From: Spirochaetota bacterium
Lineage (GTDB): Bacteria > Spirochaetota > Spirochaetia > SZUA-6
Direction: 5' to 3'
NCBI GenBank assembly: GCA_013151965.1
Contig: JAADHF010000131.1
Coordinates: forward strand, 1-64,000
Length of the DNA stretch: 64,000 nt
The notes under the pieces are model-generated. The model saw only the letters and a list, made by a program, of their open reading frames with translations. It was not told where the DNA came from and did not search any database. Positions 44,591 to 55,536 of the stretch are shown piece after piece (position 1 is the stretch's first letter; each line of letters opens with the position of its first letter). The position numbers and the translations under genes are program-made.

Positions 44591-45361
44591 ATGATGGCTG
44601 AGAAAGAAGTAAAATATATATTCCATATAACACGCAAGGACGGGAGTTTTATGATTCTGCATCCCTTTGCCGTTCCTGAAAAATTCCTCTATGCACTGGA
44701 ACATTGTAAGATAAAAGGCCGGTACGGGGGGGAACCAAGGGTAGAAACACTTACAATGTTCAGGAATAAACTTTACAGACTTGTGGAAGCAGCGGTAAAG
44801 AATTGGATTTTTGATAAACGTTTTATTTCCAAGTTCCTTATTTCGACAGGTGTTTTCCTTGTAACATACTTCTTTTTCTCCTATGTAGTAAGGGATCCGA
44901 TACCAATGATCGATGAGACGGTTTTAGGCCTTGGGGCGGGTATATTCTCGTATATTATGTTGGGCAGAAAAGATATGAATTCCGATGGTGCAATGAAAAA
45001 GAGAGTCGAGCTTCGGTCGAAAGTGGACAGGATAGAATTTACAGAGAGTGATTTTTTAAAAAAGGTGGAAACGATTCTTTATGAAAATGAATCGGGAAAG
45101 TTGGACGATGTGATAAAGCAGATAATTGCTCCCGAATATAAATACAAATTCTCAGGGTTAGAGGACAGGGAAGAGGTAGTACAATTTTTGCGTCTTCTGG
45201 AAAACAGATTTAATTTCAGGCGCCTTAAACGGGAGGAAAAACACTTTAAGAGGTTCGTAGACGGCAGGACCGGGAAGGGATTTATAGAATCTAAAAATCT
45301 TGATTATCCTCTTTATGCAGTTTACAAATTATTCAAAAAGAATATTTCGAGTTTTAAGTAA
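44591..45361 (+). CDS. Unknown membrane protein cotranscribed with tRNA-Gly
   Basis: 256 residues. The N-terminal 70 residues are soluble; two hydrophobic segments (about 81-98 and 106-122: FLISTGVFLVTYFFFSYV and TVLGLGAGIFSYIML) are followed by a charged cytoplasmic helical domain. I do not recognise the family. The start codon is 7 bases after tRNA-Gly and no Shine-Dalgarno fits (bases upstream belong to the tRNA). Tandem ATG codons (44591 and 44594) make the exact start uncertain. It converges with the rex-like gene. Confidence 0.75.
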   Translation: MMAEKEVKYIFHITRKDGSFMILHPFAVPEKFLYALEHCKIKGRYGGEPRVETLTMFRNKLYRLVEAAVKNWIFDKRFISKFLISTGVFLVTYFFFSYVVRDPIPMIDETVLGLGAGIFSYIMLGRKDMNSDGAMKKRVELRSKVDRIEFTESDFLKKVETILYENESGKLDDVIKQIIAPEYKYKFSGLEDREEVVQFLRLLENRFNFRRLKREEKHFKRFVDGRTGKGFIESKNLDYPLYAVYKLFKKNISSFK

Positions 45362-45372
45362 CTTAAAACCTT

Positions 45373-46554
45373 TCAGGCAGAAGTTTTATCAGCGACAGCG
45401 GAACTCCCCTTTTTTAACAGATCACCTATTATTTTGCTGACCTGACCTACATGAATTTTCTTGTAGATTGTGTCATTTATGGTTACAACAGGACTTTCCG
45501 AACAGATTCCCGGGCACGGTACTGCCTCTAATGAGAACAAACCTGATTTTGTTGATTCTCCCGCTCCGATATTGAGTTGTTTTGAAACTGATTCCAGAAT
45601 TTCTATTGCTTCCTTTCTCTGGCATGTATCCCCTATGCATATCTTAATCTGATACTTTGCCGGGGGAATAAGTTTAAAATTACTGTAAAATCTTATGGTC
45701 TGGATAAGACTGCTGATAGGAATATTTAAGAAATCAGCAATAAATTCTAAAATATCCTCCGGAAGATAGCTGTATATCTTCTGTGCTTCTTCCAGGATAG
45801 GAATAAGATATTCCCGTTTCGGCTGATATTTGTTAAAAATCTCTATCACTTTTTTCGGCGGCACTTTATTCTTCTCACGTTCTTTCCGGCTTCTATGTGT
45901 CCTCTTGTGTGTTTTTAAATAGTGCGAAAGAAGTGCAATCCCTGTTGCTATATTTTCATTACGAACAGTAACATTCTCAGGGACGGACAGCTGTGTGGGT
46001 GCAAAATTCCAGATAGCCTTAATTCCAAGCGATACGATACGGTTGCAGACAGATTGAGCCGCTTCTTTGGGGACCGTAATAATAGCTATCCCGATATCGT
46101 AACTTCTCACTACCCGCTGAAGTGCTTCCAGTGGGAGAATGGTAAAAGAACCGAGTACATTACCGGCTTTGGATGGGTCATTATCAAAAACGGCTATCAG
46201 TTTTAACCCGTACTCACCCATACCCGGGTACTGAGCCAGTGCGGAACCAAGATGCCCTGCACCGACCAGGATCGCAGTATTCTGGTAATTGATTCCCAGA
46301 AATTCTTCTATCGCATTTTTTAAGCCTTTGACCGAATAACCGGATTTGGGTTTTCCCTTATAGCCGATAATGGCAACATCTTTCCGCACCTGTGTATCGT
46401 CCACCTGGAAAAATTGTGCAAGATGTTTGGAAGAAACATGCTCGTCACCCTGTCTTTCCATTTCCGCGAGTATTTGATGATACAGAGGTATCCTCCGCAA
46501 TGTCTGCTCGGGAATGGATTTTTCCGGTTGTTTATTACTATTATTACCTTCCAC
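45373..46554 (-). CDS. Rex redox repressor fused to a NuoE-like [2Fe-2S] domain
   Basis: 393 residues, GTG start. Residues about 18-85 form a winged helix (SSKHLAQFFQVDDTQVRKDV) and about 90-215 the NAD(H)-binding Rossmann domain (VGAGHLGSALAQYPG), together a complete Rex. A basic linker (KRTHRSRKEREKNK, 217-230) leads to a thioredoxin-like domain (about 233-385) like the 24-kDa NuoE/HydA-partner subunit. It has four cysteines at 306, 311, 347 and 351, in C-x4-C and C-x3-C pairs, as in [2Fe-2S] NuoE. Rex senses NADH/NAD ratio and represses fermentation genes; the extra domain suggests an added iron-sulfur redox input. No Shine-Dalgarno is present. Confidence 0.9.
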   Translation of the reverse strand: MEGNNSNKQPEKSIPEQTLRRIPLYHQILAEMERQGDEHVSSKHLAQFFQVDDTQVRKDVAIIGYKGKPKSGYSVKGLKNAIEEFLGINYQNTAILVGAGHLGSALAQYPGMGEYGLKLIAVFDNDPSKAGNVLGSFTILPLEALQRVVRSYDIGIAIITVPKEAAQSVCNRIVSLGIKAIWNFAPTQLSVPENVTVRNENIATGIALLSHYLKTHKRTHRSRKEREKNKVPPKKVIEIFNKYQPKREYLIPILEEAQKIYSYLPEDILEFIADFLNIPISSLIQTIRFYSNFKLIPPAKYQIKICIGDTCQRKEAIEILESVSKQLNIGAGESTKSGLFSLEAVPCPGICSESPVVTINDTIYKKIHVGQVSKIIGDLLKKGSSAVADKTSA

Positions 46555-46561
46555 GTTAATT

Positions 46562-46590
46562 AAGGATAAGTTTTCGTGAAAGAAATGTCA
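46562..46590 (-). promoter_or_regulatory. Promoter of the rex-nuoE fusion gene
   Basis: On the minus strand TTGACA (46590-46585), 17-base spacer, TATCCT (46567-46562). The GTG at 46554 follows the -10 box by 7 bases, implying a leaderless transcript. Confidence 0.5.
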
Positions 46591-46594
46591 ATAT

Positions 46595-47827
46595 TTATTC
46601 TCCGACCCGCTGTTTTTCTTCCATCTGTTTCTGAAGTTCAAGAGCTTTCTTCGCTGTCTCGATATTTTCCCGTGCCGGGAGATATTTCGGGTCAATTTCG
46701 AGAACCTGTTCCCAGTATTTTATCGCCTCGGCATTATTGCCGTGTGCATAGGCTTCTATTCCGTTAAGATACAATTTGTCCGTTTTATCCTGCCTTGCAG
46801 CTCTTCCCCTGTCCCCTAAGTTAAGCCTGGCTTCCACACTGAATTTGTCAAGCGGATTAAGTCTTCCGCTTAAATCGATATTATAATTGGTAACAAAACT
46901 AACGGAATCTAAATTTAACATGCTTCCGATACTGATACTCGGATTGTCCCCTTTAAAATGGAAGCCTCCCTGGACGGATAAAAAATCGGTAATATTTACA
47001 TTTATTCCGCCTGCTACGTTCCATTTTTCAGCGGGATAATCTGCAGGATCGAAACTTATGGGGTAGTTTAAATCAAAAGACATGATCAGAGGACGTATGG
47101 GAGAGTATGCTATTCCTGCTGTCGCTATGGTAGGAAGAGGTTCCGTCAGGACAAAGGGCCCCAGATTTTTAATTACAAGGCCTATAGAGAAGTTCTTTGA
47201 TCTTGCGAAGAAGAATTTGAGAAAATTTAAACGGGTAAGCAGACCTAAATCAGCCATAATACTGAATGCTGATTGTCCTGGATATATTGCAGCAGGGATG
47301 TTTCTATAGGCTATTTTCAGGTTGGCACCGGCGGACAGGCCGTAGAAGTAATAGTTCGAAAAGAAATTATACGATACATTTAATGTTCCGACTGTTTCGG
47401 ATATAGTGCCTTTGCCGGATCTTTCCGCCCAGTCATTGTATTCGGTAAAGGGCAGATAGAGAAATTTGCCTCCGAAACCAATCCCCAGATCGTTAATACG
47501 AACACTGTACAGTACACCTTCCAGGTTCGAATCTGCAATCCAGCTGTGGTGAAGAAAGGCAAGTTCTGTATATTTGAGTGTAGAGCTGCCGGAAGGGTTG
47601 GATTCCAGGAATCCTAAATCATCTGCAACAGCGGCAAAGGCGGTACCCATTCCTTCATATTTCCCGCCAAGTGGTATTTCCAGAGTCGGAAAAACCGTAA
47701 GGCCTGTATTGGAGTCGGCATTATTACTGAATAGATCTTGTAATTTATAGTATAAACTACTATCCTCTCCCATAAGGGGTGGTATTGCTGTTAAGAGAAA
47801 AATTATGAATAGATAAATATTTTTCAT
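46595..47827 (-). CDS. Outer-membrane UPF0164-like protein with C-terminal TPR
   Basis: 410 residues from the ATG at 47827 (AGCAGG upstream); signal peptide MKNIYLFIIFLLTAIPPLMG. An FadL/UPF0164-like start (GGKYEGMGTAFAAVADDLGFLESNP) and Gly/aromatic-rich strands form a probable barrel to about residue 345. A cytoplasm- or periplasm-facing TPR-like tail follows (LYLNGIEAYAHGNNAEAIKYWEQVLEIDP near 360-390). The combination of barrel and TPR is known from treponemal proteins. Precise role unknown. It lies 40 bases upstream of the rex-like gene. Confidence 0.82.
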   Translation of the reverse strand: MKNIYLFIIFLLTAIPPLMGEDSSLYYKLQDLFSNNADSNTGLTVFPTLEIPLGGKYEGMGTAFAAVADDLGFLESNPSGSSTLKYTELAFLHHSWIADSNLEGVLYSVRINDLGIGFGGKFLYLPFTEYNDWAERSGKGTISETVGTLNVSYNFFSNYYFYGLSAGANLKIAYRNIPAAIYPGQSAFSIMADLGLLTRLNFLKFFFARSKNFSIGLVIKNLGPFVLTEPLPTIATAGIAYSPIRPLIMSFDLNYPISFDPADYPAEKWNVAGGINVNITDFLSVQGGFHFKGDNPSISIGSMLNLDSVSFVTNYNIDLSGRLNPLDKFSVEARLNLGDRGRAARQDKTDKLYLNGIEAYAHGNNAEAIKYWEQVLEIDPKYLPARENIETAKKALELQKQMEEKQRVGE

Positions 47828-48004
47828 TACCTGCTTTAAATATACTACTAATGCATCTGCTTTTCTATGTTTCTCCCCAATTATTTTATCGGTTTTAATG
47901 ATAGGATTTATCATACTAAATAGTGTAACCTCTGTTTTTTGTCGATAATAGTATAAAATAGTAGTCAGATGCAGTTGTGATAGGGATTATAAGGAGATTA
48001 AAAA

Positions 48005-51000
48005 CTGCTTAGAATAAACAGGATAACGATACTATTAATTATCCTTTCTGCTTCAGTGCTTTATCATGTTTCCGCAGGCGGTCAGAGAGAAAAACCCTTT
48101 GATGCCGTGGATAAACTGATGGCTGAGAAACAGTACAATGATGCCCTCTCGAAGTTAACCGAGATAGCCAGGCTGCATCCCGAGATGATGGATGAAGTGG
48201 AAAAGAGAATCGGAGAGGTAAGAAGTATTTTAGATAACTATAACAGCAGATACGCTGAACTTATCAAGGTTCTGTTCGAACAGCACAATGTCGGAAAGGC
48301 TTTAAAAATAATTAAAGAACTGGAGGATCTTAATCCTCATCCTAATATATCAACATTGGGGTCCCTGGTTAAAGCTAAAAGGGGAGCTGAAGTTGTATAT
48401 AATCTTAACCGCTTTGAAGAAATTATGAATAAAGGTCTTAAAGAACTTAAGGACGGGCTATACTTCGATGCTATGAAAACGTATATCCAGGGGTTTGCCC
48501 TTCACAGGGAAGAATTCCAGAAGGCATCTTACGGGAACATCGTAAAAAACTCCGTAGAAAAGGCTTTATCCGGACTTCGGAAAGCTGTTGATGATTTCAT
48601 GAAATCAGGTCCCGAAATCGACAGGCAGTATACTTCTGCTGCACTGCTGGTTTCCGGCCGGGAACCTGATAAATTTTCCATGGAAGCCGGCAGACTTATT
48701 GCAGAATTAAGAAAAGTTGCCGTATTGAGAAACATAATATATAACTCCGCCCTGGTTTTTGATAATGAGAATAAATATATCAAAGAACATTCGGGTAAGA
48801 ATCAGGATGATTACTTCCTCTACTATGCATATTCGGTTACAACAGGTAGAAAAACCCGGACGGAAAGGGAAGGCATCCTTGCAGCTATAGAGATATACTG
48901 GGAAGAAATGCTTGGAACTCTTACAGAAAAGGTTAAAGAAAGCGCCGCTCTGTTTTTGGCCAGAGGAAAGGATTCTTTTGACACAGCCGGATATACAGCC
49001 GCCGATACCCAGTTTAAAAATGCGTATATATTTTATTATATTTATTCGGAACTTACAGCACTATGGGAAGCAAGAATATCAACAGGAAAGGACCTTTCCG
49101 TTGACCGGGGGAGCCTGAAAATCATCGAAGAAAAGCTGCCGGTCTATCTTTTTGCACAGGAAAAAATAAGAGAAACGGAAACGTACAGAAAGTTAGGTAA
49201 ACTGCTGCTCTCCCTGCCTACAACAGGAAGAGTCGATACGGCATCCAAAGATATCATTCTCGCATCGAGAGAGAAATTATCGGAAATAAAGGGTGAACTT
49301 GCAAAGGATAAGGAGCTCTGGAAAAGCTATGAGGGGTATTATAAAAACGTGGATAATCTTAAGTTCGATATGAATATTCACATCAGTGATGCATCTTCGA
49401 TGATACACCGTCTTGATACCATTCTATCCGAAGTAAAACAGGAGGATGTCCGGTTTGTAAATGCATACAATTTTATTCAATACAATGAACTTAAAGAGAA
49501 AGTTAAAAATTACAGCTCGCAGTATAAAGACGCGAAGAAACTCAGCGATGGTTACGATATTATTGTGGAAACAATCAAGGATGAAAAGGGAAAAGAGGTT
49601 AACATAACACGTCATGTTCAATTTCCTTCATTGGCTTTGCAGCATTTTAATACTCTCGGCAGGAGTATAAATGAACTCCGGGGAGAAGGAGATAAATTCC
49701 TTAATTCGATCATAGAGAATGAGGAGCTTAGGGTTAACGAAACCGAATATAAAAAATGGGTGGGGAATGGAACGGAAATAATGGATAATGTTGATTCTCT
49801 GCTGAAAGAACTTAACGGAGCTGTTTCGAAAGCAAAAGAACTTATTCTGCAGGCGGAGAGATATAAGAATGAAGGCATGCTTCGTCTTACACAGGCCCGC
49901 TCGGAACTTAAGGCCGAAAAATTCAGTAATGCCAAAGAGCATATCAAACTTTCCGGACGTGCATTCGAAACGTCTCTTACCTACGAAGAGAACGGTAAAA
50001 TCAGGGATATACTGGATAAAACTCTGCCCGAACTCTCACGGGAAATCGTAAAGCAGGAGAATCTGTTTGTGGTCCGCGAAGTCCGGCGGTTTATTAATAA
50101 AGGGCGGAGATTTTACGGATTGGGAGACTTTGTTAATGCGGAGGCATCTTTTCTAAAGGCAAAGGCGAGATGGGCGGATACGAATCCGACAGAAAATAAA
50201 GAGATAACGAACTGGCTTACCATTGTCAGGTCTGCTCTTTCTATTAAATCCGGGCGTGAAATATCGGACAATAATCCGCTCTATACGGAAATGACACAGC
50301 TTATAAACCTGGCGACAGAAGATTTTTTAAGAGGAAAAGAACTTCTGTCAAAGGGCAGGAAGGTGGAAGCTTTAAAAAAACTGAAAAGCGCAACGGATAA
50401 ACTCGAACGTGTACGGCTTTCATTTCCATACAACCGTGAAGCAAGAGTATTGACATTAAAAATACAGGAATTGAGTGATCCTGAAAATTTTTCTACTTCA
50501 CTGACCAAATTTTATAATGATGCTGTTAAGAACTTCCGCACTAAACCACAGGAGGCGTATGCTGATCTTAAGGATATCGAAGAGATAAAGCCGGACTATC
50601 CGGGTTTAAAAAGATCTATATATAATCTCGAAATTACCCTTAAAATAAGAATACCTCCTCCGGATCCGAAAAAGATTGCAGAATCAAACAGGCTCTATGC
50701 GGCGGCATATCGGATAGTTATTAAAAACCAGGTGGATCTCTTCCCTTCGGCTCTTGCCCAGCTGAATAAGGCAATAGAATTGAATCCTGATAACCGCAAG
50801 GCAGCCGGCTTAAAGGATAGAATTCAGATTGCAGCAGGGGGCACGGTACAGGCGGTCCTTTCGAGTATTGCACAGGAACAGTATAAAATTGCAGAGGATA
50901 AGTATCTGGCCGGGAAATACTTCGAAGCGCTTGTTATCGTGGAAAGACTGCTCAAAAACAAGAGGAATCAGGGTTATCCTCCTCTTCTCGAATTAAAAAG

Positions 51001-51022
51001 GAGAATAAAAGCGAAGATCTGA
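48005..51022 (+). CDS. Large exported helical/TPR-like protein, apparent CTG start
   Basis: 1005 residues if translation starts at the CTG at 48005. AAGGAG (47991-47996) is 8 bases before that codon, and the resulting N-terminus is a good signal peptide (LLRINRITILLIILSASVLY, cut after HVSA). The first conventional start, GTG at 48056, would cut the signal peptide and has no ribosome-binding site. The rest is mostly alpha-helical with TPR-like and coiled-coil segments (for example AEKQYNDALSKLTEIARLHP near the start and the last 130 residues). The stop overlaps the phosphatase gene start by one base, so the two are coupled. It may be a periplasmic partner of that phosphatase. Confidence 0.72.
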   Translation: MLRINRITILLIILSASVLYHVSAGGQREKPFDAVDKLMAEKQYNDALSKLTEIARLHPEMMDEVEKRIGEVRSILDNYNSRYAELIKVLFEQHNVGKALKIIKELEDLNPHPNISTLGSLVKAKRGAEVVYNLNRFEEIMNKGLKELKDGLYFDAMKTYIQGFALHREEFQKASYGNIVKNSVEKALSGLRKAVDDFMKSGPEIDRQYTSAALLVSGREPDKFSMEAGRLIAELRKVAVLRNIIYNSALVFDNENKYIKEHSGKNQDDYFLYYAYSVTTGRKTRTEREGILAAIEIYWEEMLGTLTEKVKESAALFLARGKDSFDTAGYTAADTQFKNAYIFYYIYSELTALWEARISTGKDLSVDRGSLKIIEEKLPVYLFAQEKIRETETYRKLGKLLLSLPTTGRVDTASKDIILASREKLSEIKGELAKDKELWKSYEGYYKNVDNLKFDMNIHISDASSMIHRLDTILSEVKQEDVRFVNAYNFIQYNELKEKVKNYSSQYKDAKKLSDGYDIIVETIKDEKGKEVNITRHVQFPSLALQHFNTLGRSINELRGEGDKFLNSIIENEELRVNETEYKKWVGNGTEIMDNVDSLLKELNGAVSKAKELILQAERYKNEGMLRLTQARSELKAEKFSNAKEHIKLSGRAFETSLTYEENGKIRDILDKTLPELSREIVKQENLFVVREVRRFINKGRRFYGLGDFVNAEASFLKAKARWADTNPTENKEITNWLTIVRSALSIKSGREISDNNPLYTEMTQLINLATEDFLRGKELLSKGRKVEALKKLKSATDKLERVRLSFPYNREARVLTLKIQELSDPENFSTSLTKFYNDAVKNFRTKPQEAYADLKDIEEIKPDYPGLKRSIYNLEITLKIRIPPPDPKKIAESNRLYAAAYRIVIKNQVDLFPSALAQLNKAIELNPDNRKAAGLKDRIQIAAGGTVQAVLSSIAQEQYKIAEDKYLAGKYFEALVIVERLLKNKRNQGYPPLLELKRRIKAKI

Positions 51023-54000
51023 TGCGAAATATAAAAATATTATCTACCGTATCTGTTTTCCTCTTTTTATTAACAGCATTAAATGCACAGGATATCTACT
51101 GGGAATTGCCGAAAGCATTTGTTCCCTCCGAAGCAAGATTTCCGATTTCCGCATCAGGCGGAAAAACCGCCGCTGTTCTCTGGCATGAATTTATACCTTC
51201 TAAAAAAGGCGGAGGTAAAGTTTATCTGTCTATCAGTACCAGAACGGAGAAAAGATCATGGAAAAATCATCTGCGTTTTGCCGGACCTTTTGTTTATGAG
51301 AGGAACCAGGCGCCTATCAGTTCCCTGGCTGTAAACAGCAGGGGGGAGATTTATATTGCAGTTGCTGTTAATGAGAATATAACAAGAATATTTTATTCCG
51401 CAGACGGCGGTGAACATTTTAAAATTCTTGCCGATATACAGGCTGTCTCTGTTACGGTAGCTCCGAGATTATTTGTAAAGCGGGACGGCGGGCTTATCCT
51501 GTTTGTAACACATGAAACCGCCGATTCTCTATCGATCTACTATTCGGTTTCTGCAAACGGCAGAAGCTGGACGAATTTCCAACCCTTTGTAAGAGAAGAA
51601 AAACTGTTTATAAACTTTTTGCCCTATCATGTATCCTTTAAGAACAATGAATATGTCGTGTTTCAATCCGTTACAACGCAAACAATTCGAAATTACCGGT
51701 ACCAGCTTTACCTTAAAATCAGCAGGGACGGCGGGAAAACATGGAGCGGTGCGAAACTTCTCGAATTCAAAGAGCATAAGGACGGTAAATTACAGAAACA
51801 GGATCAATTCTCCAATCAGAGGCCGAATCTAAAGGTTTTCGGAAACAGAATTCTTATGACATGGGAGCGCCAGTACAGGAACCAGCCTCCTCAGATTTAT
51901 TTTGCAAAGCTGGATGAACAGGGAAATCTGGCAGGAGAACCGGAAAAGGTTACAGAGGGTTTAAATTCCTGCCATTTCCCGCAGATTATTATCTATAAAA
52001 ACGAACCTTTTATTCTATGGTTCGATAACAGGCGGGGTGAAGATCATATTATAATTGCAGGCAAACGGGGATTTAGATGGGAGGATCGTGATATAAGCAG
52101 AATTCCCGGAGAATCGTCGTTCGGAAGGCCTGTGCTGTTAAATAATACCTTATATATATTCTGGGAGAATAAAAGAGGAAAACAGTACAGGGTTTTTTTC
52201 CTGGAACCGGACAAAACGGTTCTCCCGCCTAAAATTATTGCCGAGAATTTTAAACCGGGAAGTATCAGCAACAGAAGTGATTTACGCATAAGATGGATTC
52301 TGCCTAAGGATTCTTCCGGAATTGCCGGTATCGATTATTCATGGAATCCGGGAGCAGAACATCTGATTAAAGATGTATTAAAAATAACCTCCAATAAGAA
52401 ACAGTCGATTACTCTTTATGCGGATAAAGACGGACTGTGGACCTTTAGTATTTCCGCCATGGATTATGCGGGCAATTGGTCGAAGCCCGTATCTGTTTCC
52501 TTCATCAGAGATACTGTTCCGCCGTCTCCGGTAACCTTTGACAGCCTTAAGGTTGATGAAAATGGATTTTTAACGGCCAATACATTTAAAATCGGATGGA
52601 AGCCTCCGAAAAAAGATACTATCAAAGGTTATACATATGTGCTGCAGTACATTGGTTTAAAAGATGAAAATGTCAATCAGGCAAAAATAAAATTTTTATC
52701 TCCGCCTTCCCGCCTCATTACAAGGGAAACCGGTATTTCGTATCGTAATATCGATAATGGTGTATATGCTCTAATGGTATCGGCAATAGATTCCGCAGGA
52801 AATATAGGCAGACCGAATAAACTGATATTTAAACTGAATAAATATATTCCTGTTACATACATAACATATGTAAAAGCGAAAAAAGACGAATTCGATAATG
52901 TAAATATATCGATAACAGGCAGAGGATTTGCAGAGGGAGGCCTTGTCAGCGAAGTTATACTGGACCGCGATGGGAAAAAACCATACGACTACACCTTTTT
53001 AAGATCCTCCGGGGCATTTAAGGTCGAGAATGACAGGCTTATCGATAAGCTGACTCTGTCTGATATAGAAGAAGGCCTGTACCGTATAGGAGTTATTCAT
53101 CCCGAACGCGGACTCTATTTTACGGGCCGTGAATTAAAACTCGAGCCGCAGGGAACGGTTAAATTCGGTTATTTTAATTATAAATATAAATCTCCATGGA
53201 CCGGGATAACACGTATATTATATTTCATCACTTTAAACGAGGTTATTGTCTGGATAATAGTGTTCTTCCTCGCCGCATTAATTATAATTGCGTTTAGAAA
53301 ATTAATCCTGATCTTTAATGAAGGGAAACTTCTCAAAAGAGAAATCGGTTTTATTCTATATGAACAGGCTATGCCTGGGAGAAAGGAAAAGAAGATGGCA
53401 GAACTCAAACGAAAAGGGATGGGGTTACGGTTTAAATTCGTATCTTTGATTATGATTCTGGTTTTTCTCATAGTCCTCATAGTTGCGGTACCCCTCGGAT
53501 ATTATATGATAGAAACTCAACGGAAGGATTTAACAACAGGGCTGACTCAGCGTGTCGAGGTTCTCTTAAACAGTCTGGATTCCGGAAGCGCTCCGTATCT
53601 GGTTCTAAAGGATAAGCTGGAACTTGCGAATCTGCCTGATCTTATAAAAGGAATGCCCGAGGCAAAATATGCAACGATAACGGATATGGATGATAAGGTC
53701 TGGGCGACTAACGATCCGGATATTTCTTCCAGGGTAGAGGGCGGCGAGTACAGACAGTCGGAATCGGTCATTAAAGATGATATATCTCCTTTAGTGCCTG
53801 AGTTAGCTAAGAAAATTAACCGTGAAGCAAGGGATAAAATAACGGCTATTGTAACTGAGATCGACAAATTATCAACGGAAGCGAGGATTTATGCATTAAA
53901 GAATGATACGGCTTCCAGGCAGAAACTGCTGCAGCTTCAGGATGCAATCGGAATACTCTCTGCAAAAGTTAACAGGGAGCTTCGAACAATAGGAGCAAGG

Positions 54001-55536
54001 ATCAGCAGTACCCCGAAATTTAATCCGCAGCATTTAAAATCTTTTTATATCTTTTATAAACCGATTGTACTTCGTCAGCCCAGAGAGGATTTTTACTACC
54101 ACGGTCTTGTAAGGCTGGCTATTTCCACGGAGAAGATAACCAATGAAATAATCAGTTCCAGAAATACCCTTGTTATTCAGACAGGAATAATTGCATTGAT
54201 TGCCACTCTTTTAGGTATAATCGGAGCCATAATCCTTTCAAGTATTATAATCATGCCGATTAAGAAACTGGCACTGGGTGTGGCTGAAATAAGAGACACA
54301 GAGGATAAGGAGAAGCTTAAAACACACCATATAGACATAAAATCAGGTGATGAAATCGGTACATTAGCCGATACCGTTAATCAAATGACCCAGGCTCTTG
54401 TAAAGGCTGCAATAGCAAATAAGGATCTTATTATCGGCAAGGAAATCCAGAAAATGTTTATCCCCCTGGATAAGGATGAATCCGGCAGAAAAACCAGTAC
54501 CGGAGGAGTAATAAGTGATACGGTAGAGATATTCGGTTATTATGAGGGGGCGAAAGGGGTATCCGGCGATTATTTCGATTTTACAAAGGTAGATGATAAT
54601 CAATACGCAATCATAAAGTGTGATGTGGCGGGGAAGGGAGTTTCCGCTTCTCTCATAATGGTAGAGGTAGCAACTATCTTTTCCACATTCTTTAAGAGCT
54701 GGGATGGTAAAAACCCGGGCCAGAGTACCGTGGATCTGGTATATCTTATTAATGATATGCTGGAAGAACGCGGATTTAAAGGCAGGTTTGCAGCACTTAC
54801 CGTTTGCATTCTGAACAGTAAAACGGGAAACAGTTACTTCTGTAATGCAGGAGATAATATACTCCATATCTACGACGGTACGGAACGAAAGATGAAACAG
54901 CTTTTACTGCCGGAGGCTCCGGCAGCCGGTGTTTTCCCGTCCATGCTGGTAGAAGCACAGTCCAGTTTTAAGAAGATTATGAACCGGTTAAACAGCGGCG
55001 ATATACTGTTTCTCTTTACAGACGGACTTGAAGAAGCAAAGAGGCATTTCAGAAATCAGCAGTTCTCTGTTTCCGTGTGTGATGAGCCGGGGCTTAAAGA
55101 AGGAGAACTGCACGGCGGGACACATACAGCAGGAAGCGATAATGAAGAGTTCGGAATACCAAGAATACACGATATTATCAACTCGATGCTTAACCGCGGA
55201 AAATACAGGCTCTATAAATATCACAACCCGATAGCGGATGAAGAGCTGAGTTTTGATTTTACCGGATGTGAGGGTAATATAAGAGAAGCCGTATCGGCGC
55301 TTATTGCAATAGAGAGAATATTCAGGATCTATCCTGATCCCGGTGCAGGAACAGGCGATAGAATTTCCATAGACAGGGGAATTAATGATTTTCTTATGGA
55401 GCATTTTGATCAATACTCCTTATATTTTACTCACAGGGTAGAGGGAGACGAAAGGGATCAATACGTAACATTTTCGCACTTAAAGGAAGAAGAACAGTAC
55501 GATGACCTGACGCTCCTTGCCGTTAAAAAAAAGTAG
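51022..55536 (+). CDS. Transmembrane SpoIIE-type PP2C phosphatase with beta-propeller sensor
   Basis: 1504 residues. Signal peptide (to about 22), then a BNR/sialidase-like propeller (about 30-410) with Asp-box repeats such as SRDGGKTWSG near 234, immunoglobulin/Fn3-like segments (about 420-660), and a further beta domain. Membrane helices lie near 738-755, 805-825 and 1053-1078. A HAMP domain follows (about 1080-1130), then a PP2C/SpoIIE phosphatase (about 1138-1370) with GVSGDYFDF (near 1179), DVAGKGVSASL (near 1200) and FTDGLEEA (near 1328), the metal-binding aspartates. It probably dephosphorylates an anti-sigma-factor antagonist in response to an outside ligand. The helical gene just upstream is coupled. 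Confidence 0.9.
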   Translation: MRNIKILSTVSVFLFLLTALNAQDIYWELPKAFVPSEARFPISASGGKTAAVLWHEFIPSKKGGGKVYLSISTRTEKRSWKNHLRFAGPFVYERNQAPISSLAVNSRGEIYIAVAVNENITRIFYSADGGEHFKILADIQAVSVTVAPRLFVKRDGGLILFVTHETADSLSIYYSVSANGRSWTNFQPFVREEKLFINFLPYHVSFKNNEYVVFQSVTTQTIRNYRYQLYLKISRDGGKTWSGAKLLEFKEHKDGKLQKQDQFSNQRPNLKVFGNRILMTWERQYRNQPPQIYFAKLDEQGNLAGEPEKVTEGLNSCHFPQIIIYKNEPFILWFDNRRGEDHIIIAGKRGFRWEDRDISRIPGESSFGRPVLLNNTLYIFWENKRGKQYRVFFLEPDKTVLPPKIIAENFKPGSISNRSDLRIRWILPKDSSGIAGIDYSWNPGAEHLIKDVLKITSNKKQSITLYADKDGLWTFSISAMDYAGNWSKPVSVSFIRDTVPPSPVTFDSLKVDENGFLTANTFKIGWKPPKKDTIKGYTYVLQYIGLKDENVNQAKIKFLSPPSRLITRETGISYRNIDNGVYALMVSAIDSAGNIGRPNKLIFKLNKYIPVTYITYVKAKKDEFDNVNISITGRGFAEGGLVSEVILDRDGKKPYDYTFLRSSGAFKVENDRLIDKLTLSDIEEGLYRIGVIHPERGLYFTGRELKLEPQGTVKFGYFNYKYKSPWTGITRILYFITLNEVIVWIIVFFLAALIIIAFRKLILIFNEGKLLKREIGFILYEQAMPGRKEKKMAELKRKGMGLRFKFVSLIMILVFLIVLIVAVPLGYYMIETQRKDLTTGLTQRVEVLLNSLDSGSAPYLVLKDKLELANLPDLIKGMPEAKYATITDMDDKVWATNDPDISSRVEGGEYRQSESVIKDDISPLVPELAKKINREARDKITAIVTEIDKLSTEARIYALKNDTASRQKLLQLQDAIGILSAKVNRELRTIGARISSTPKFNPQHLKSFYIFYKPIVLRQPREDFYYHGLVRLAISTEKITNEIISSRNTLVIQTGIIALIATLLGIIGAIILSSIIIMPIKKLALGVAEIRDTEDKEKLKTHHIDIKSGDEIGTLADTVNQMTQALVKAAIANKDLIIGKEIQKMFIPLDKDESGRKTSTGGVISDTVEIFGYYEGAKGVSGDYFDFTKVDDNQYAIIKCDVAGKGVSASLIMVEVATIFSTFFKSWDGKNPGQSTVDLVYLINDMLEERGFKGRFAALTVCILNSKTGNSYFCNAGDNILHIYDGTERKMKQLLLPEAPAAGVFPSMLVEAQSSFKKIMNRLNSGDILFLFTDGLEEAKRHFRNQQFSVSVCDEPGLKEGELHGGTHTAGSDNEEFGIPRIHDIINSMLNRGKYRLYKYHNPIADEELSFDFTGCEGNIREAVSALIAIERIFRIYPDPGAGTGDRISIDRGINDFLMEHFDQYSLYFTHRVEGDERDQYVTFSHLKEEEQYDDLTLLAVKKK

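Follow-up and report, generated by a model that had tools for sequence, protein, structure and literature searches.

Rex is the standard NADH/NAD sensor in many anaerobes, and the locus examined here raises the question of what such a repressor would do with a second, iron-sulfur redox domain on the same polypeptide. The gene lies in a 64,000-nucleotide stretch of a Spirochaetota genome that was analyzed as a whole (hereafter, the window) and forms an uninterrupted open reading frame on the minus strand (45373-46554; GTG start at 46554, stop at 45373) encoding 393 amino acids. The first-pass annotation had described it as a complete Rex joined to a full NuoE-like fold, and profile searches bore this out. 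Specifically, the Pfam matches from the N- to the C-terminus were PF06971 (59.1 bits, cut-off 27), PF02629 (59.4, cut-off 22.3), and PF01257 (128.7, cut-off 24.8), and the NCBIfam Rex model NF003994 scored 250.7 bits (cut-off 130). The Rex part (residues 8-218; 45901-46533, minus strand), covered by NF003994, PF06971, and PF02629 and matching the PDB Rex structure 1xcb (E = 5.8e-37), comprises a winged helix (DNA-binding domain at residues 14-62; 46369-46515, minus strand; PF06971), an NAD-binding Rossmann domain, and a C-terminal helix.

Beyond a linker at residues 219-232 (45859-45900, minus strand) comes a NuoE/HydC-type thioredoxin-like [2Fe-2S] domain that includes a helical N-terminal part (residues 233-385; 45400-45858, minus strand). 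Its PF01257 match spans residues 238-378 and profile positions 3-143 of 145, and the nearest solved structures are NfnC (9n5u) and HydC (8a6t). Both halves are homologous to solved structures at E ≤1e-29, which excludes chance resemblance. The four cluster cysteines were found at positions 306, 311, 347, and 351, just where the first reading of the sequence had placed them, and form two pairs, C306-x4-C311 (45622-45639, minus strand) and C347-x3-C351 (45502-45516, minus strand), that are invariant in five fusions of this kind, introduced below, and in 50 compared subunits. That reading had also called the linker basic, which holds for the window's protein but not for the group, since the linker varies among the five fusions and is their stretch of lowest conservation. 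The added domain rose above none of the subunit models tried, namely TIGR01958 nuoE_fam (95.4, cut-off 142.4), HoxE (97.1, cut-off 224), and the NuoE and FdhG equivalogs. In an AlphaFold model of the fusion, for which the alignment was thin, only the winged-helix part and most of the NuoE part were confident; the Rossmann part and the linker were poor (confidence <50 at residues 206-230), so that no interdomain contact can be claimed from it.

The same fusion is encoded as a single open reading frame in four relatives, with identities to the window's protein of 94% (G002), 73% (G003), 63% (G015), and 60% (G005). Together with the window's genome (G000), these represent two families of one spirochaete order, and in all five the junction is homologous and falls just after the Rex C-terminal helix. 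Immediately upstream of the fusion gene is a gene for a UPF0164 protein (46595-47914, minus strand; PF03687, 154 bits), which adjoins rex in relatives both with and without the fusion. On the other side, a convergent gene (44591-45361, plus strand), whose best match is a sub-threshold DUF6116, is likewise the neighbor of rex in G002 and G003, which have the fusion, and in G024 and G025, which do not; between these same two neighbors, the Rex of G024 and G025 stops at 224 amino acids and has no added domain. Adjoining the UPF0164 gene, at 48056-55536 of the window, are a 988-aa TPR protein and a 1504-aa BNR-repeat/HAMP/SpoIIE phosphatase protein, and a similar pair occupies the same place in G003, G005, and G025. 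A sigma-70-like promoter (TTGACA-17-TATCCT; 46563-46591, minus strand) precedes the fusion gene, and its spacer holds a sequence resembling a Rex half-site, TTCACGA (46574-46580), common to G000, G002, and G003. The match of this promoter to the full Rex operator is weak, with four mismatches, so autoregulation through the degenerate site is only a suggestion.

Comparison of the five fusions with 50 stand-alone HydC/NuoE sequences revealed two classes of residues in the added domain. All five retained C306, G308, C311, C347, G349, C351, and P355, as well as F289, Y290, and F293. In contrast, G299 and T309, present in 50 of the 50 subunits, occurred in none of the fusions, and A310, V313, G285, T288, L353, Q255, and L348 were also uniformly lost, while the stand-alone HydC of sister lineages retained the subunit motifs. 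Such a pattern is what would be expected if cluster binding were still under selection and service as an enzyme subunit were not. Within Rex, the motif DDTQVRKDV was invariant in the five fusions and present in most non-fused sister proteins, and the NAD-pocket residues A105 and Y109, mapped by alignment to Ala94 and Tyr98 of the Thermus aquaticus protein (PMC8063818), were invariant in the fusions. Ratios of dN/dS (NG86) were 0.04 for Rex and 0.12 for the added domain between G000 and G002, and 0.03 and 0.20, respectively, between G005 and G015, where dS exceeds 1 and the values are rough. Being well below 1, they indicate that purifying selection constrains both halves, the added domain less so, at 3 to 6 times the Rex value.

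In phylogenetic reconstructions, the fused cluster domains formed one clade (100/100) that was sister to HydC sequences from G005, G015, G010, and G026 (92/89 under LG, with 92 the bootstrap value; 86 under LG+C20), a relation with moderate support and a long branch. The HydC concerned heads a hydC-hydB-hydA operon, encoding an [FeFe]-hydrogenase, in G005 and G010, where the G010 operon is split over two contigs that share an overlap of 141 identical bases; in G026, hydC and rex are divergently arranged. The Rex tree placed the unfused protein of G010, a member of the same family, with the fused proteins of G005 and G015 (99 SH-aLRT), for which a single gain followed by one loss in G010 would be the simplest account. 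Because the G010 Rex lacks the domain, the latter is dispensable. An origin from the tandem hydC genes of other phyla was considered and rejected, as neither tree supported it and the tandem pairs fell elsewhere in both.

The search for Rex operators (TTGTGAA-N4-TTCACAA) bears on the same question. In G005, G015, and G010, an operator with one or two mismatches ends 13-15 bp upstream of the hydC start codon, and shuffling the region before hydC gave an equally good match in 0-0.2% of cases. Taken with the HydC sister relation, these operators make it most likely that the domain came from a subunit of a Rex-controlled enzyme. In Caldicellulosiruptor, Rex binds and represses [FeFe]-hydrogenase promoters (PMC6391272). 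In the window's own genome, 16 sites were found versus 18 for a reversed-pattern control, showing no enrichment and lying nearly all within genes; G000, G002, and G003 yielded no canonical site that was both conserved and located in a promoter. Among the unfused relatives, G025 has an operator-like sequence, TAGTGAATCAGTTCACAA (G025:C1:1196917-1196934), just upstream of a 168-aa open reading frame that is followed, on the same strand, by rnfC; in that genome, Rex may thus control the rnf-hydC operon.

We prefer to read the fusion as a Rex that has captured a cluster domain and repurposed it to provide a second redox input, a reading we hold tentatively, at somewhat less than an even chance. 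That the second input is linked to iron-sulfur or ferredoxin chemistry is plausible. A copy of hydC, encoding the [2Fe-2S] subunit of an electron-bifurcating hydrogenase apparently under Rex control in relatives, would have become fused to the C-terminus of the genome's only Rex. The product has most likely retained dimeric DNA binding in the manner of Rex, with release on NADH. A [2Fe-2S] cluster in the HydC-derived domain would trade electrons with a low-potential pool, through ferredoxin or a flavoenzyme, and the state of the cluster would modulate the repressor by a signal passing through the C-terminal helix. In Rex, the two subunits exchange this helix, whose first part touches the NADH nicotinamide (PMC8063818). 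As the added domain follows directly on the helix, a change in the domain could be passed on to the DNA-binding state. For HoxE in isolation, a protein related to the added domain, the Em is -424 mV (PMC11647496), which is close to the ferredoxin couple and is the reason that a second, low-potential input is preferred. A more specific form of this proposal, a repressor that compares the NADH/NAD couple at its Rossmann domain with a ferredoxin-level couple at the captured HydC cluster, is possible, and we would put it at appreciably less than an even chance.

Several alternatives have to be weighed against the content of the genome. A single Rex per genome exceeds the family cut-off, the fusion being the only rex in the window's genome; in G001, of the same genus, no Rex above the cut-off was found in a genome 81% complete, reflecting either loss or an assembly gap. 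No Fe_hyd_lg_C match, and hence no [FeFe]-hydrogenase, was found in G000, G002, or G003. The window's genome encodes two HydB-type proteins, each with its own HydC in its own cluster, and its other 51K-family proteins are RnfC. The first cluster (L157, 2738-13724; G000:C104) contains rnfC-D-G-E-A followed by genes for a 2Fe-2S protein, hydC, DRTGG, CBS, DRTGG, and PHP proteins, a small ATPase-like protein, a thioredoxin-like 2Fe-2S protein, hydB, and a ferredoxin-domain protein; having no hydrogenase catalytic subunit, it is possibly an Rnf-linked bifurcating module. The second (L158, 2415-7935; G000:C105) consists of hydC, hydB, and an NfnB-like gene whose 1092-aa product has Fer2, Fer4_20, pyridine nucleotide-disulphide oxidoreductase, and Molybdop_Fe4S4 domains, and is predicted to encode an NfnABC- or formate-dehydrogenase-like bifurcating enzyme.

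Of the alternatives, the one that survives best, unlikely as we consider it, is that the HydC-like domain docks onto one of the HydB-type flavoproteins, that of the Rnf-linked or of the NfnABC-like enzyme, as a docking repressor or moonlighting subunit, with Rex sequestered or released according to how much of the enzyme is free or to the redox state of the free enzyme. The domain does include the helical N-terminal part of HydC, retains F289, Y290, F293, and P355, and has a relative in the HydC of an operon apparently under Rex control, and two HydB proteins are there to be bound. Against this, nine positions kept by subunits, among them G299 and T309, are lost in all five fusions, no NuoF/HydB partner gene was found at the fusion locus, and both HydB proteins are already paired, so that, the remaining 51K proteins being RnfC, no orphan partner is visible in an assembly 94% complete. 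The proposal that the fusion is the structural subunit of an orphan NuoF was dropped on the last of these grounds. The absence of an [FeFe]-hydrogenase, the paired HydB proteins, and the loss of subunit-constant residues together disfavor a purely enzymatic role for the fusion, and they weaken the earlier suggestion that the repressor docks onto an NADH dehydrogenase or hydrogenase.

Distinctly unlikely, in our estimation, is that the cluster reports by being lost or damaged under oxygen, oxidants, NO, or iron limitation, instead of by one-electron redox change. Some other Fe-S regulators signal in this way, the ligands are invariant while adjacent subunit-constant positions have changed, and the genome encodes several Fe-S-rich bifurcating enzymes. 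However, thioredoxin-like [2Fe-2S] clusters are usually fairly stable, and all four ligands have been retained. We assign a similarly low probability to the domain being a passenger, joined to Rex by accident, folded, and tolerated without a signaling role. Its weaker constraint relative to Rex, its narrow distribution, and its absence from G010 would fit this history, but it has been retained in two families with dN/dS well below 1 and with the four cysteines, G308, G349, and P355 invariant, and has been kept in the window's family despite the lack of an [FeFe]-hydrogenase there.

The fusion is confined to five of the 26 genomes of the order. A profile built from the five proteins gave no further full-length match among approximately 395 genomes of the class, and no additional fusion was found in 393 genomes of the phylum. 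When 84,980 species genomes were scanned with sequence patterns, seemingly full-length matches appeared in Elusimicrobiota, Omnitrophota, Bacteroidota, Ignavibacteriota, Lentisphaerota, and Bacillota. Analysis of their open reading frames resolved these into separate tandem rex and hydC genes, and the idea of a fusion widespread across phyla was dropped; as the scan relied on short peptide patterns, rare distant fusions may have escaped it. Tandem rex and hydC genes 5-60 bp apart were observed in many distant phyla (L034, L035, L036, L037, L039, L040, L050, L054, L085, L090, L092, and L097). Although such pairs show how an assembly or annotation error might join two genes, this explanation has almost no probability left, because five separately assembled genomes share a single frame, a homologous junction, and no internal stops. 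The papers searched, including those on HydABC, Hydrogenedentota, and Rex regulons, contained no description of a Rex with an added [2Fe-2S] domain, and the first-pass statement that no protein of this architecture has been characterized therefore stands within that literature.

Returning to the second-input reading, its interest lies in the fact that anaerobic energy metabolism draws on the gap that separates NADH from ferredoxin, and that the means by which cells monitor their ferredoxin are poorly known. Having taken an electron-transfer subunit from the operon it regulates, such a Rex would be a tangible candidate for a ferredoxin-pool sensor, and the unfused orthologs at the same locus are natural controls. 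If the fusion does compare both couples, it would read at the promoter the very potential gap that bifurcating enzymes exploit, with a sensor domain borrowed from its own target enzyme.

Set beside known systems, the fusion is a new, lineage-restricted variant of Rex, of which each half is ordinary, and not a categorically new system. Like members of the Rex family (Thermus 1xcb and 2vt2), it has a complete winged helix, an NAD-binding Rossmann domain, and conserved NAD-pocket residues, and its relatives bear the canonical operator ahead of hydrogenase genes; solved Rex chains, however, are approximately 207-224 amino acids long and end at the C-terminal helix, whereas the fusion continues for a further 175 with the [2Fe-2S] domain. 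With HydC, NuoE, and NfnC (8a6t, 7p5h, and 9n5u), the subunits of bifurcating enzymes and complex I, it shares a full-length match and the four cluster cysteines, but here the domain sits on a DNA-binding protein, away from any NuoF/HydB gene, and has shed subunit-constant residues. The tandem pairs of Elusimicrobiota, Omnitrophota, Bacteroidota, Ignavibacteriota, and others encode the same two types of proteins in adjacent, codirectional genes, yet these are separate, usually 5-60 bp apart, and do not appear to be ancestors of the fusion. Finally, by analogy with SoxR and other Fe-S transcription factors, a [2Fe-2S] cluster on a DNA-binding dimer would confer redox-dependent DNA activity (PMC8063818), while the DNA-binding and cluster folds of SoxR are unrelated to those of the fusion, in which, unlike in SoxR, an NAD domain accompanies them.
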